Origin: Labilibaculum euxinicum
GTDB taxonomy: Bacteria > Bacteroidota > Bacteroidia > Bacteroidales > Marinifilaceae
Length of the DNA: 64,000 nt
Direction of reading: 5' to 3'
Assembly (NCBI RefSeq): GCF_009795715.1
Contig: NZ_WTCR01000002.1
Coordinates: forward strand, 186,001 to 250,000
Part shown: one piece after another, positions 25,729-60,770 of the stretch
Layout: every line of letters begins with the position of its first letter
Numbering within the stretch: the first letter of the stretch is position 1
Program-made: the position numbers and the translations under genes
Notes under the pieces: model-generated
Database searches by the model: none
Told to the model about the DNA's origin: nothing
Seen by the model: the letters and a program-made list of their open reading frames with translations, nothing else

Positions 25729-25956
25729 TGTCCTTTATTAATGTTAGTTGAATAGATATTTGATGTTAAAGCAATAAATATAAAATGATGGGCGCAGATA
25801 AGCATAATTTTTTCGATGTAAGACTGTAATATCGGGATGTAAGTGGAATATTGAAGAGCAAAACCTTATTGTTTGGAGGGAGGAATTTAATGTTGATTGC
25901 AACAGAGCTTGGATAGAGATATCATTGAGGCGGTGCAGTATGTCAGAGATAAAGCA

Positions 25957-26232
25957 AGGGCGCAGCCCTGATGTCTTCGCAGCAGATAGTTTCCGCATCA
26001 TTTTTTTTAGGAGCCTTAGCTCCAACATCTACGCAAGATTTTCATGCCAGAGATAACAACAGGGGCACAGCCCTGATGTCTTTGCAGCAGATAGTTTCCG
26101 CACCATTTTTTTTAGGAGCCTTAGCTCCAACATCTACGCAGGATTTTCATGCCAGAGATAAAAACAGGGGCACAGCCCTGATGTCTTCGTAGCGGGTAGT
26201 ATCCGCACCGATCCAATAGGGGCGTTAGCCCT
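25957..26232. repeat. REP-like palindrome array, left block
   Basis: Six short GC-rich palindromes: AGGGCGCAGCCCT (25957-25969), GGAGCCTTAGCTCC (26010-26023 and 26115-26128), AGGGGCACAGCCCT (26061-26074 and 26166-26179), AGGGGCGTTAGCCCT (26218-26232). They alternate between GGAGC and AGGGGC types in a unit of 105 bp with well-conserved linkers. This is the layout of bacterial interspersed mosaic elements. The block ends 10 bases from the stop codon of the Y1 transposase gene. Confidence 0.85.
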
Positions 26233-26242
26233 GTAATCTTCT

Positions 26243-26704
26243 CTAATTGTACCATTCAAATAAATATTTAGGCTTGTAATTCACGTCGAATTTTTCCAAC
26301 AACAATAAATATTCTTCTTTAAATGATTGTTTTTTATGGTGTTCCGGTTGGTTCAATACATATTTTACCACATTATCGATATGCGATTTAGAATAGGTAA
26401 AAGCCCCAAAACCATCTTGCCAGGAAAATTTTCCAGGGATGTATTTTTTTTCGTTCAACCATTTGGAAGAACCCGATTTTACCTGCTCCATTAATTTTGA
26501 TGGGGAAATAGTCGGATGCATTCCAATAAAAATGTGTGTATGATCGGGATTGCAATAGATGGCATAGGTTTTACATTTTTGGTTGGTAACAATGCCACAG
26601 ATTACTTTTTCTAATTCATCCCTGAACCGTTCTTTGATTAGGTTTTCACGCCCTTTAACCGAAAAAACGAATTGGGTATATAATTGGGTGTATGTATTTG
26701 CCAT
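26243..26704 (-). CDS. Y1 tyrosine (HUH) transposase, IS200/IS605 or RAYT type
   Basis: 153 residues. The start MANTYTQLYTQFVFSVKGRENLI and the HUH motif NPDHTHIFIGMHPT are characteristic of Y1_Tnp (PF01797). The catalytic Tyr is probably in HIDNVVKYVLNQPEHH. There is no TnpB. REP-like palindromes flank it on both sides, so it may be a REP-associated transposase (RAYT) acting on these palindromes rather than an ordinary IS200. It appears intact. Confidence 0.88.
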   Translation of the reverse strand: MANTYTQLYTQFVFSVKGRENLIKERFRDELEKVICGIVTNQKCKTYAIYCNPDHTHIFIGMHPTISPSKLMEQVKSGSSKWLNEKKYIPGKFSWQDGFGAFTYSKSHIDNVVKYVLNQPEHHKKQSFKEEYLLLLEKFDVNYKPKYLFEWYN

Positions 26705-26724
26705 ATTTGTTTTTTTAAGATGTC

Positions 26725-27119
26725 AGGGCTACGCCCTTTTTTTTCTTGTCATTATTCATTTTCTACGAAGATGCATGGGCTACGCCCCTGAAACTGTATT
26801 TTGCCATATTTGTTTTTTAAGATGTCAGGGCTACGCCCTTTTTTTCTTTTAATTTATTCTTTTTCTACGAAGATACATGGGCTACGCCCCTTTTTTTTAG
26901 GAGCCTTAGCTCCAACATCTACGTAAGATTTCTATGCCAGAGATAAAAACAGGGGCGCAGCCCTGATGTCTTTGCCGCAGATAGTTTCCGCATCATTTTT
27001 TTTAGGAGCGTTAGCTCCAACATCTACGTAAGATTTTTATGCCAGAGATAAAAACAGGGGCGCAGCCCTAATATCTTCGTAGCCGATAGTCGCACCAACC
27101 CAATAGGGGCGTTAGCCCT
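26725..27119. repeat. REP-like palindrome array, right block
   Basis: Nine further palindromes: AGGGCTACGCCCT (26725-26737, 26827-26839), GGGCTACGCCCC (26777-26788, 26879-26890), GGAGCCTTAGCTCC (26900-26913), AGGGGCGCAGCCCT (26951-26964, 27056-27069), GGAGCGTTAGCTCC (27005-27018), AGGGGCGTTAGCCCT (27105-27119). The part from 26890 on copies the left block, linkers included. The first four form a separate CTACG-loop group in about 102-bp periods just upstream of the transposase start. Confidence 0.85.
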
Positions 27120-27129
27120 GTAATCTTTT

Positions 27130-27183
27130 CTAATTGTACCATTCAAATAAATATTTAGGCTTGCAATTCACGTCAAATTTTTT
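27130..27183 (-). pseudogene. Remnant of a second Y1 transposase 3' end
   Basis: 54 bases reading KKFDVNCKPKYLFEWYN-stop, nearly identical to the last codons of the intact transposase and standing in the same position relative to an AGGGGCGTTAGCCCT palindrome. The rest of this copy is missing. It shows that block plus gene end were duplicated as one unit. Confidence 0.8.
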
Positions 27184-36000: not shown

Positions 36001-36023
36001 TCAGGACAAATAGTTTCCGGAAC

Positions 36024-36456
36024 AATATTGTCCTAATTGATTTTAACAATTGGGCTTTCCGCCCAAACCCGACATCATTTATTCATTAAAGCCTATTTTT
36101 ATTTGTATTCATGATTTCCGCTTCGCTCCAATTCTTGTCTTGAAACAAGAAACGAAGCAAAGAAATTCAAGGCTGCTTTTTAAAAAACTTCCTTATTTAA
36201 TTCAAACCTAAGTGTGTACGGGCGATCTTCTCCCGATTATGAATTTTGTTGTATTTGTGAAACAAATACTTACAAATTCTATTTCGGGATCAGCTTCCCG
36301 GTCTTACTAAAGGTTTGAACTAAAACGAAAGCTCTTTAAAAAAGATGCCAATCAAATACCTAACTTAAATTGTACCCCTTAAGATTATCACGAGCTGTAA
36401 GTTTTTATAAAAGAAGTAATTAATACTTATTCTCAAAAAACATTTAGGACGCAATT
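36024..36456. mobile_element. MITE-like element copy 1, flanked by 11-bp target duplication
   Basis: 433-bp non-coding element, nearly identical to 43536-43919. It is bounded by a perfect direct repeat GTTTCCGGAAC at 36013-36023 and 36457-36467. The ends are imperfect inverted repeats: AATATTGTCCTAATTGATTT at the left and AATTGCGTCCTAAATGTTTT read inward from the right. Inside are hairpins: TTGGGC/GCCCAA, GCTTCG...TTCTTGT/AACAAGAA...CGAAGC, and, only in this copy, GTATTTGT/ACAAATAC in a segment of about 60 bases. No transposase is encoded. Confidence 0.85.
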
Positions 36457-36623
36457 GTTTCCGGAACTATTTTAAAAAGCCAAATTGATTCAGTATGCTT
36501 CCTCTTTTGTTTGCAGGCTGCAATTAGTGAGCGGATCTGGTATTATAAATAAGATTCTTGTATTGACTTTGGCAGGCGGAAAGCTTAACTTCTTGTTTAT
36601 TTACTATAAAAGGAGGAGAGAAG

Positions 36624-39309: not shown

Positions 39310-39900
39310 AGGGTCTTGAAGGGTCAAAAATCTTTAAAATAAAAAGGGATGTTCATTGGTTTGAACATTCTCTTTTTATCAATATGGTATTTAATTACTA
39401 ACCAGCTGTCATCCTGAACAAAGTGAAGGATCTTTTCAGTAAACAGATCCCTCGATTCCTCGGGATGACATAGCACTTGCAAATAAAGAGTCTTGAAGAG
39501 TCAAATGGTCGAAAGTCTAAAAGTCTTGAAAGGTCGAGAGTTAAAAAAAATAGAAGAGGATGTTCATTGATTTGAATATCCTCTTTTTATCAATATGGTA
39601 TTCGATTTCGAATCGTTTGTCATCCTGAACAAGGTAAAGGATCTTTTCAGTAATCAGATCCCTCGGTTCCTCGGGATGACATAGCACTTGCAAATAAAGA
39701 GTCTTGAAGAGTCAAATGGTCGAAAGTCCAAAAATCTTGAAAGGTCGAGAGTTAAAAAAAATAGAAGAGGATGTTCATTAATTTGAATATCCTCTTTTTA
39801 TCAATATGGTATTCGATTTCGAATCGTTTGTCATCCTGAACAAGGTGAAGGATCTTTTCAGTAATCAGATCCCTCGGTTCCTCGGGATGACATAAAACCT
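39310..39900. repeat. 211-bp tandem repeat, nearly three copies
   Basis: Units start at equivalent bases 39348, 39559 and 39770, an exact 211-bp period; the third is cut short near 39895. Each contains a terminator-type hairpin (GATGTTCA...TGAAcATcC, serving purT in unit 1) and a longer inverted repeat beginning TGTCATCC (first at 39407) and ending GGATGACA (39463-39470). Copies 2 and 3 differ by only a few bases; copy 1 is more diverged. The TGTCATCCTGA word is a common intergenic repeat in Bacteroidota. Confidence 0.88.
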
Positions 39901-40004
39901 GCAGCTTATTGATAAAGGCTGCGAAATTCTGTACTTACCAAGAAAAAATCCATTTAATTTTCTACAAATACTGCGGTGCTCTGCACCCAGCAATTTAATT
40001 TTGT

Positions 40005-40107
40005 GCTAACTGCTAACTGCTAACTGCTAACTGCTAACTGCTAACTGCTAACTGCTAACTGCTAACTGCTAACTGCTAACTGCTAACTGCTAACTGCTAA
40101 CTGCTAA
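40005..40107. repeat. Heptanucleotide array, GCTAACT x 14.7
   Basis: 103 bases of perfect GCTAACT repeats. The array runs exactly into the stop codon of pflA: the TAG stop (minus strand, 40104-40106) is made of repeat bases. Likely to vary in copy number by replication slippage. Confidence 0.95.
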
Positions 40108-40829
40108 TTAATAATTACTTCTTTAAAATACTGAAGAAAGATATCCTTTGCCACCTGCAGTTGTTCCAGGGTGTTTTCAGGTACATCGTTTAGTTTGTAT
40201 TCCATGTTTAAGTGTTCATATTTGTGAACTCCCAGTTTGTGATAGGGCTGAATCTCCAGCTTTTCAATGTTTTCGTATTTCTGAAAATATTTTCCCATTT
40301 CGTGCAGATATTCAGGCTGATCGGAGTATCCGGGAACCAGTACGTAGCGCATCCACACTTTCACTTCTTTTTCGCGGAGGTATGCTGCAAATTTAAGGGT
40401 GGTATCGTTGCGTTTACCAGTTATCTTTTGATGCCAGTCAGGGTTGATGTGTTTGATGTCGAGCAGAACCAAATCCGTATACTTCAGTAATTCCTTAACG
40501 TCATCGGTAAGAACATTTCCATTGCTGTCGATACAAGTGTTAAAACCTTCCTCTTTCAGCTGCCTGAAAAGTATTTTGAGTTTTTTTGCCTGCCAAAGCG
40601 GTTCTCCGCCCGAAATGGTTACTCCGCCAATTTTCCCAAAAAAAGGACGCTGGTTGCGTGCTTTTCTCATGATTTCTTCAAGTGGAGTTGGTGTTCCTCC
40701 TTCGAAAGTAATGGTATCGGGATTGGCACAATACAAACATTTAAAGGCGCATCCCTGCAGAAATACGACCAGTCGGATTCCCGGGCCATCATATGTACCT
40801 AATGATTCAAAAGAATGAACGTTTAACAT
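40104..40829 (-). CDS. pflA: Pyruvate formate-lyase activating enzyme
   Basis: 241 residues, radical-SAM enzyme that installs the glycyl radical on PflB. The cluster motif GCAFKCLYC is near residue 30, followed by GGVTISGGEPLWQ; no ferredoxin insert, as expected for the PflA type. DLVLLDIKHINPDWHQKITG and the VLVPGYSD segment match PflA. It lies 90 bases downstream of pflB with a hairpin between them. Its stop codon sits in a heptamer repeat array. Confidence 0.95.
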   Translation of the reverse strand: MLNVHSFESLGTYDGPGIRLVVFLQGCAFKCLYCANPDTITFEGGTPTPLEEIMRKARNQRPFFGKIGGVTISGGEPLWQAKKLKILFRQLKEEGFNTCIDSNGNVLTDDVKELLKYTDLVLLDIKHINPDWHQKITGKRNDTTLKFAAYLREKEVKVWMRYVLVPGYSDQPEYLHEMGKYFQKYENIEKLEIQPYHKLGVHKYEHLNMEYKLNDVPENTLEQLQVAKDIFLQYFKEVIIN

Positions 40830-43524: not shown

Positions 43525-43535
43525 GATTTGTAATC

Positions 43536-43919
43536 AATATTGTCCTAATTGATTTTAACAATTGGGCTTTCCGCCCAAACCCGACATCATTTATTCATTA
43601 AAGCCTATTTTTATTTGTATTCATGATTTCCGCTTCGCTCCAATTCTTGTCTTGAAACAAGAAACGAAGCAAAGAAATTCAAGGCTGCTTTTTAAAAAAC
43701 TTCCTTATTTAATTCAAACCTAAGTGCGTACGGGCGATCTTCGAACAAGTTCTCAGCTTCCCGGTCTTACTAAAGGTTTGAACTAAAACGAAAGCTCTTT
43801 AAAAAAGATGCCAATCAAATACCTAACTTAAATTGTACCCCTTAAGATTATCACGAGCTGTAAGTTTTTATAAAAGAAGTAATTAATACTTATTCTCAAA
43901 AAACGTTTAGGACGCAATT
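43536..43919. mobile_element. MITE-like element copy 2, flanked by 11-bp target duplication
   Basis: 384-bp copy of the element at 36024-36456 in the same orientation, lacking about 49 bases of the internal hairpin segment. It is bounded by a perfect direct repeat GATTTGTAATC at 43525-43535 and 43920-43930, which differs from the duplication around copy 1. Outside the internal difference I saw only two substitutions between the copies, so both insertions are recent. It sits just upstream of the histidine-kinase promoter. Confidence 0.85.
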
Positions 43920-43945
43920 GATTTGTAATCTTTTTTTTGCTGTGA

Positions 43946-57326: not shown

Positions 57327-57338
57327 TATTTATATAAA

Positions 57339-57412
57339 CTAGGGGTGCCTAACTTTAAGGCTGAGATCATACCCTTTACCTGATCAGGATAATGCCTGCG
57401 TAGGAAAGTAAA
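57339..57412 (+). ncRNA. TPP riboswitch (THI element)
   Basis: Carries the conserved TPP-aptamer strings in order: GGGGTGC, GGCTGAGAT, ACCC, ACCTGATCAGGATAATGCCTGCGTAGGAAAG. It precedes thi4-thiE-thiC, so thiamine pyrophosphate should shut the operon off. No terminator stem with T run follows directly; the expression platform is more likely the stem at 57446-57475. Confidence 0.96.
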
Positions 57413-57445
57413 GAAAAGTCTGCTTTTTTGGAGTAGGACTGCCCC

Positions 57446-60409: not shown

Positions 60410-60770
60410 AAAATGGGCATCTGCTTGCGTGGATGTCCATTTTAGCAAAATACAAAGCCCTCTCACTTTCGTGGATGTTCATTATTGCGATGCACAAGCC
60501 CTTCGGAGTTTTGAAAATGCGTGTTTTAGCTACACACAATGCCCATATTTTTTTGGGAATGCCCGTTATTGGGGAACACAAGCCTTTCGGAGTTTCAAAA
60601 ATGCCGATTTTAGTGACACACAATGCTCCTATTTTTTCGTAGATGCCCATTTTTGAGCCACACAAGCCCTTCGGAGTTTCAAAAATGCCGGTTTTAGTCA
60701 CACAAAAGACCTGTGTTTTTTTGTGGATGCCCATTTTAGTCACACACACATGCCTCGGAGTTTCGAAAAT
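60410..60770. repeat. 84-bp minisatellite built of 42-bp half units
   Basis: The word TTCGG (CTCGG in the last copy) followed by AGTTT recurs at 60502, 60586, 60670 and 60754, an exact 84-bp period. On the minus strand the array is open for 114 codons and reads as eight 14-residue units that alternate between CVTK-x-GIFETPKGL and a more variable C-x4-GI-x5-AL. Because 42 and 84 are multiples of 3 the frame is kept by default. No promoter or signal peptide, so I treat it as repeat DNA, not as a gene. Confidence 0.8.

Follow-up and report, generated by a model that had tools for sequence, protein, structure and literature searches.

A gene-less IS4-type element with two copies in a Labilibaculum euxinicum contig probably carries a structured-RNA domain

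The window, by which we mean the whole stretch of 64,000 nucleotides analysed here from Labilibaculum euxinicum (contig NZ_WTCR01000002.1), holds two copies of a short element, both of which are bounded by inverted ends and flanked by short direct repeats:

36023..36457, plus strand: MITE copy 1, 435 bp, running from CAATATTG to GCAATTG
36014..36022, no strand: left 9-bp target-site duplication of copy 1, TTTCCGGAA
36458..36466, no strand: right 9-bp target-site duplication of copy 1, TTTCCGGAA
36023..36039, plus strand: left terminal inverted repeat of copy 1, CAATATTGTCCTAATTG
36442..36457, minus strand: right terminal inverted repeat of copy 1, reading inward as CAATTGCGTCCTAAAT
43535..43920, plus strand: MITE copy 2, 386 bp
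43526..43534, no strand: left 9-bp duplication of copy 2, ATTTGTAAT
43921..43929, no strand: right 9-bp duplication of copy 2, ATTTGTAAT

Both copies begin with CAATATTGTCCTAATTG and finish with GACGCAATTG, and the terminal inverted repeats CAATATTGTCCTAA / CAATTGCGTCCTAA are present at each, in agreement with the imperfect inverted ends that a sequence-only reading of the window had reported as common to the two. The same reading took the element to be non-coding, which holds good, the longest stop-free stretch in the window copies being 54 codons. Its length of 433 bp has to be corrected to 435 bp (36023-36457); the second copy does have the same ends and a different duplication, as described, though it starts at 43535 rather than at 43536.

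The search for further copies that had been suggested yields nine in the whole genome: besides the two window copies there are seven, each 333 bp long, on contigs C22, C33, C36 (three), C37 and C38, and all nine are near identical except for two internal blocks. Degenerate copies are found in addition on C23, C32 and C22 (at 153099), and matches to the element occur in 14 of the 40 genomes searched, counting its own and including all 8 congeners. In each of the nine copies the first base is C and the last is G (CAATATTG...GCAATTG, with GTAATTG in one), while the base just outside the flanking 9-mer is G on the left in 5/9 and C on the right in 3/9. As these outer bases vary, and C and G are the element's own termini (CAAT...ATTG), the duplication is 9 bp and not the perfect 11 bp claimed earlier, a length that the own-genome and related copies contradict; the 11-mer at both window copies results from the 9-mer plus one chance match per side.

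With the ends set at CAAT...ATTG, the flanking 9-mers are identical at five of the nine own-genome copies and agree at 8/9 bases in two and at 7/9 in two. We extended the comparison to 27 distinct bounded elements from the own and related genomes, a set that includes two full ISs and two orthologous-site pairs and in which each distinct element sequence is counted once (C36:5320, with flanks of 9/9, was left out as identical to C36:2783). Here the 9-mers agree at 9/9 positions in 16 elements, at 8/9 in 4, at 7/9 in 2, at 6/9 in 2 and at 4/9 or fewer in 3. Agreement of at least 8/9 is thus seen in 20 of the 27, whereas 6 pairs at the most did so when the right flanks were shuffled 10,000 times, and the target consensus over 20 sites is approximately ATTTNNAAT.

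Related genomes provide sites at which the insertion can be followed directly. The two window flanks of copy 2, once joined, match congener G005 without interruption over 591 nt (98.6%), where ATTTGTGAT stands once, with one mismatch to ATTTGTAAT, and the site is also uninterrupted and without the element in G007 and G008 (84%). For copy 1, congener G007 has an orthologous element (L054) between the same 9-mers. The corresponding place in G005 is without the element, but the 9-mer and some 13 surrounding nucleotides are missing there too, so that a single 9-mer is neither shown nor excluded there. The empty-site check proposed by the earlier reading is therefore positive for copy 2, with a single 9-mer carrying one mismatch in place of the 11-mer expected, and unhelpful for copy 1 in G005. 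In G002 the copy-2 site (L163, about 1225-1440) contains a different stretch of some 160 nt beside an intact ATTTGTAAT.

Imperfect flanks can be followed in the same way. The C38 copy has flanks agreeing at 7/9 only, but the corresponding site in G005 (L062) has a 9/9 pair, so the mismatches are probably later mutations. An element in G007 with unmatched flanks (L055, 1526-1976) has the left flank of the C38-type site and another right flank, and is likely to be the product of recombination between two copies. The interior changes as well: at one and the same insertion site the element measures 435 bp in the window genome (copy 1) and 334 bp in G007 (L054), the two versions being distinguished by a block of roughly 53 bp and by a stem tip that has been swapped, which suggests that blocks are exchanged between copies or deleted in place.

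When searching 56 genomes of the family with the end pattern, we found in G068, among other hits, two ends that face inward over a distance of 1333 bp (L068, 773-2105) and enclose a transposase gene, with GAAAATTTT on both sides (flanks 9/9). The transposase frame contains one in-frame TAG, and its open 283-aa part was used as the query for a scan of named genomes, in which two loci were confirmed. A Phocaeicola MAG has a 1336-bp IS with the same ends and one open 399-aa ORF (L118, 1677-3012), the flanks of which agree at 6/9 only, and Parabacteroides sp. An277 has an IS fragment with CAATATTGTCCTAA as its right end. The earlier suggestion to look for an IS with matching terminal repeats is thus answered in G068 and in the Phocaeicola MAG. 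The likeness of the ends extends past the tip and exceeds chance in the best pairings: aligned with the left end of the G068 IS, the right end of MITE copy 2 has a local score of 20, where the best of 2000 shuffles has 13. The left end of copy 2, identical to that of copy 1 over bases 36023-36039, scores 18 with the right end of the Phocaeicola IS, where the best of 2000 shuffles has 14. The weaker pairings score 16 (reached by 1/2000 shuffles) and 11 (36/2000). One further candidate, a 3-kb 'autonomous copy' in G002 (L048), was rejected as it really consists of two degenerate fragments flanking an unrelated ORF.

The protein of the Phocaeicola IS matches PF14294 and PF01609 as well as the NCBIfam model transpos_IS4_1 (NF033592; 254 bits, cut-off 115), and its translation carries Y-2-R-3-E-6-K (YKARWEIEIFFRNLK). 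A single-ORF DDE transposase with YREK (L118) and a target duplication near one helix turn in length (9 bp at L068, with flanks of 9/9, and at the MITEs) place the partner IS in the IS4 family. As to subgroups, passages of PMC2266710 give IS231 CAT ends and repeats of 10-12 bp, the IS4 subgroup -AATR ends and repeats of 10-13 bp, and IS4Sa (Table 1) CA ends, repeats of 8-10 bp and lengths of 1150-1750 bp. With its CA ends, 9-bp repeat and 1333-1336 bp the partner fits IS4Sa best, a provisional assignment by ends, repeat length and size. The IS4-family helper guessed at earlier is thereby supported in its family and corrected in its type, since the CAAT ends and 9-bp repeats do not agree with IS231, and no such helper was found in the element's own genome. 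The perfect 11-mers that flank both window copies would be expected if an IS231-type transposase had made 11-bp duplications; however, the inconstant outer bases of the other own-genome copies, the 9-bp repeats of related elements and of the G068 IS, and the CAT ends and 10-12 bp repeats given for IS231 in the same passages leave this explanation with almost no credence.

The MITE architecture that had been proposed for the two copies is borne out by their ends, duplications, copy number and partner IS: the element has terminal inverted repeats and a duplication of constant length, is short, gene-less and multicopy (333-435 bp, 9 copies), and has an autonomous partner in other genomes. By analogy to the IS4 family, a transposase acting in trans would excise the element by its CAAT...ATTG ends and insert it into AT-rich sites roughly of the form ATTTNNAAT, where it would leave 9-bp repeats. 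Present mobility is not supported, owing to the fact that neither the L068 transposase (at E <= 0.001, where 16/56 genomes of the family do match) nor NF033592 finds a counterpart in the own genome, though the own assembly is in 39 contigs and a helper copy might lie in a gap. Among 30 loci from the matches listed for the L068 transposase, the ends stand on both sides of the gene only at that of G068.

The interior had been described earlier as having several hairpins. The hairpins are there, but the description understates them, since they belong to a structure that is conserved, covaries and probably includes a pseudoknot:

36126..36349, plus strand: structured RNA-like domain of copy 1 (long tip), model R2, 122.1 bits, E 2.1e-17 (copy 1 was not used in building R2)
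43638..43812, plus strand: structured RNA-like domain of copy 2 (short tip), model R2, 145.1 bits, E 5.2e-21 (copy 2 was used in building R2)
36132..36151, plus strand: hairpin HP1, with loop CTTGAA at 36139-36144
36139..36144 with 36166..36171, plus strand: predicted pseudoknot, in which TTCAAG is complementary to the HP1 loop CTTGAA
36206..36313, plus strand: long stem P2, pairing 36206-36228 with 36292-36313 around a tip that varies among copies

In alignments of the copies, conserved blocks alternate with exchangeable hairpins. Of 41 distinct hits to the core pattern, 11 that looked like chance were dropped by eye and 30 cores kept (25 of them in alignment A1 and 23 in A2). The tip of the long stem reads GAACAAGTTC or AAACAAGTTT in 15 of the 30 and CCCGATAGCTATCGGG in 4; another 8, including window copy 1, have a hairpin of about 58 nt there, and the remaining 3 have other tips. 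The tip is shorter in copy 2 than in copy 1. The palindrome CCCGATAGCTATCGGG is seen variously at the stem tip or after HP1 (L028, L053, L059, L060), as if it were perhaps itself a mobile hairpin. The interior of about 170 nt is predicted to fold on one strand into HP1, the pseudoknot, a closing helix and the long stem with its variable tip.

We assessed this fold by covariation. For a 20-pair stem in 23 sequences, 89.1% of cells are paired and the covariation score is 0.173 compared to 0.076 in shuffled alignments (reached by 0/500), while the count of double-change pairs is reached by 14/500 shuffles and that of further pair types by 170/500. A wider alignment, A3, takes in 25 of 36 units from distant families and the near group, and when the pseudoknot and stem are considered together in it the score is 0.340 compared to 0.146, double-change cells number 71 where the shuffles give 19.4, and double-change pairs number 14 where the shuffles give 8.1 (0/500 for each), though these values were obtained on the sequences from which the structure was drawn and relatedness can inflate the score. 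One of the five measures, further pair types, is not above the shuffles (30 compared to 29.5, reached by 249/500). Versions of the pairing slid along the alignment score lower, at 0.042 to 0.130.

The pseudoknot itself shows the kind of change expected of a pairing. Its last pair is UA in 13 sequences, AU in 5 and CG in 5, and in distant families the HP1 loop becomes CTTGAC, CTTGAT or CTCGCC with a matching GTCAAG, ATCAAG or GGCGAG downstream. Across the 36 units, pairing is complete at all six positions in 18 and reaches five positions in 6 and four in 3, which leaves 9 units with three or fewer; two of these nine are one base out of register and fully paired in A3. Single-sequence folds keep the closing helix paired between families while its sequence changes, and the nearly or fully invariant columns of the 25 sequences include the internal-loop motifs AA, GAT, CTT and CTA.

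MITE interiors are often inert, and the element could be a plain IS4-type MITE with a meaningless interior, in which the hairpins are relics or a protection against readthrough and the shared structure reflects ancestry only. A pattern scan finds no long-stem core in two related elements with good duplications, L071 (flanks 9/9) and L078 (8/9), the own-genome copies are near identical and hence uninformative on structure, and one covariation measure lies at the shuffled level, all of which would suit such an interior. However, the compensatory changes across families, the same fold in distant families and the internal-loop motifs conserved in 25 sequences speak against this, and we regard an inert interior as distinctly unlikely. 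Good duplications in elements without the core suggest that the core is seemingly not needed for transposition and is probably cargo.

The strand on which the structure works can be judged from its non-canonical pairs. Over 25 pairs there are 69 G-U cells compared to 13 A-C cells, of which 60/69 come from three consensus G-U positions (60/75 cells there), with 9 compared to 13 elsewhere; the excess is confined to these three positions and the strand argument rests on them. On this footing the domain is likely, rather than certain, to act as RNA and not as DNA. A scan of copy 1 for promoters and terminators gave nothing above chance, using sigma-70 patterns that may not suit this phylum. At the gathering threshold, Rfam 15 matches only a TPP riboswitch in the window, and for seven further loci (L010, L071, L059, L127, L129, L142, L131) it gives two weak hits at E <= 1, both outside the elements. 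No description of the element or domain was found in the open-licence papers searched, including by a search for sequence strings.

Other features of the window include this TPP riboswitch at 57331-57423 (Rfam RF00059, 69.3 bits), three tandem direct copies of 211 bp followed by a run of TGCTAAC heptamers at 39336-40129, and an 84-bp tandem repeat with overlapping copies at 84-bp steps at 60433-60768. A match to the Y1 transposase RAYT lies at about 26348-26692 amid the short palindromic repeats GGGCTACGCCC and GGAGCCTTAGCTCC (25896-27182), and the genome has five more such matches (one with stops), next to which there are other palindromes or, by eye, none.

To follow the domain beyond the genus we used two models. 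The first, R1, a stem model of 23 sequences, matched 9/247 genomes of the class, the own included and some in distant families, and was replaced by the wider R2, built from 25 sequences. At E <= 0.001 R2 matches 30/395 genomes of the class, again with the own included. Of these, 15 are strong, with a best E of 1e-9 or lower, and belong to families f1, f24, f26, f51 and f52, so that the domain recurs in four families of the class besides the window's; the other 15, at E 1e-5 to 1e-3, may be chance and were not used. Though 7/15 strong genomes (own included) contributed to R2, eight contributed no sequence (G077, G179, G298, G357, G411, G438, G450, G455), and G077 (f26) is the sole one from a family without any input. 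Copy numbers from R2 are lower bounds, as six candidates were scored per genome.

In these other families the domain mostly lacks the ends seen in the window: at 19 distant loci, no unit is bracketed by a pair of ends resembling CAATNNNGTCCTA. Within the window's own family, G012 and G016 have the core in other surroundings, and at L051 the core lies inside another MITE copy. The stretch shared between copies amounts to 171 bp in G159, 198-208 bp in G211 and 170 bp in one pair of G271, and is longer in G143 (232 bp), G102 (up to 275 bp) and another pair of G271 (280 bp). Stretches such as those in G159 and G211, which stop near the ends of the fold, together with the RNA-like character of the conserved part, could be taken to mean that the unit spread by an RNA route, that is by retrotransposition or reverse splicing of a structured RNA. 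The longer shared stretches in G102, G143 and one pair of G271 (up to 280 bp) are against it, as are the edges in the window's lineage, which are inverted DNA-transposon ends with 9-bp duplications and an IS4 match, and we consider this route very improbable.

In G102 an envelope some 310 bp long encloses three of the five copies (L137, L142, L146). Its own inverted ends (CATTGG...) read approximately CATTGGCGTCA, a sequence similar to CAATTGCGTCC. At L137 GAAGTATCG is found on both sides, on the right one base past the pattern, and is a possible 9-bp duplication, with none as clear at L142 and L146. The envelope would be a second transposon-like vehicle for the structured unit, and implies that the tie of the domain to transposon ends may predate the window's lineage. 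A different arrangement is found in G455 and G438, genomes of one distant genus, where units stand in inverted order at what seems to be the same place (L199, L202). G455 also has, in one case, an insert of about 507 bp made up of a unit and an inverted remnant (L198), absent at the same place in G438 and with AAGGTAC (7 bp) at both edges.

REP elements occur as inverted pairs, and these two genomes raise the question of whether the core works as DNA, in the form of a single-stranded or cruciform hairpin recognised by a REP/RAYT-like transposase or another recombinase of single-stranded DNA, with the IS4 ends acquired later. Besides the inverted pairs and the 507-bp insert with its 7-bp overlap, the six RAYT matches in the own genome (one with stops) and the absence of a G-U excess outside three positions would be consistent with this. 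Against it, G-U is retained in 60/75 cells at those three positions of the stem when read on the strand given here, a six-base pseudoknot is not a known feature of REPs, and the six own RAYT loci are flanked by other, shorter palindromes or by none recognisable by eye. The core pattern has no match at these six loci, and the HP1 pattern has one weak match, inside the L123 gene. A RAYT origin is consequently unsupported in this genome, the RAYT loci being without the core palindrome, and a DNA hairpin is on the whole unlikely, though it is the foremost of the alternatives.

We also looked at the genes around the unit. For 23 units in 20 stretches of families f24, f26 and f52, mostly intergenic, the right-hand gene is opposed in 18 and co-directional in 5, and one unit lies between a divergent gene pair, counts that come from simple ORF calls with 5/23 units overlapping an ORF of at least 100 codons and some loci orthologous. 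We rejected a role as a cis-regulatory leader, against which the co-directional right-hand gene in only 5/23 units argues. We would guess that the unit acts as a small RNA on its own or is selfish and RNA-like.

Taken together, we consider it probable that the feature is a MITE of the IS4 family with a structured-RNA domain of about 170 nt in its interior. The fold is kept by compensatory change and occurs elsewhere mostly without such ends, and so looks like structured-RNA cargo rather than transposition machinery. We would put forward more tentatively, as a possibility short of an even chance, that the core belongs to an undescribed family of mobile RNA-folding units, each some 170 nt long with an exchangeable tip and a pseudoknot between loop and strand, which has spread through this class of bacteria by riding any transposition system at hand, be it IS4-type ends, the G102 envelope or inverted pairs. 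If so, the RNA domain, whether selfish or functional, would persist beyond the vehicles that carry it.

As a MITE alone the element is ordinary, yet it makes a clean case: its ends are exact, its duplication is 9 bp, one of its sites is found empty and its helper is of a known kind. The domain matters more: with compensatory change, presence in distant families, no Rfam match and occurrence both inside and outside a transposon, it is a candidate for a new class of RNA, and the MITE copies amount to natural experiments in expression and insertion. It also cautions against reading MITE interiors as filler.

Several known systems share some of these properties. The palindromes of REP/RAYT systems are likewise dispersed hairpins and sometimes form inverted pairs, whereas the structured unit is about 170 nt long with a predicted pseudoknot and the own RAYT loci show different repeats. 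MIC231 and other IS231-derived cassettes are non-autonomous derivatives of the IS4 family able to carry cargo between IS ends. They differ in their CAT ends and 10-12 bp repeats from the window element, which has CAAT, 9 bp and no gene cargo. The CA-ended ISs of the IS4 family, such as IS4Sa, are closest to the partner, which has the single-ORF DDE transposase with YREK (L118), 5'-CA ends and a length of 1333-1336 bp; the 9-bp repeat here is within the 8-10 bp listed for IS4Sa in Table 1 of PMC2266710, though the CAATR tip also resembles the IS4 subgroup, for which the same paper, in its passages on the subgroups, gives 10-13 bp. Unlike these ISs, the window element has no gene. BrickBuilt of Porphyromonas gingivalis, as passages of PMC4596501 describe it, is likewise short, gene-less and multicopy with inverted ends like those of an IS family, but has an array of 23-nt direct repeats between IS5-like ends where the window element has a conserved structured domain between ends of IS4 type.
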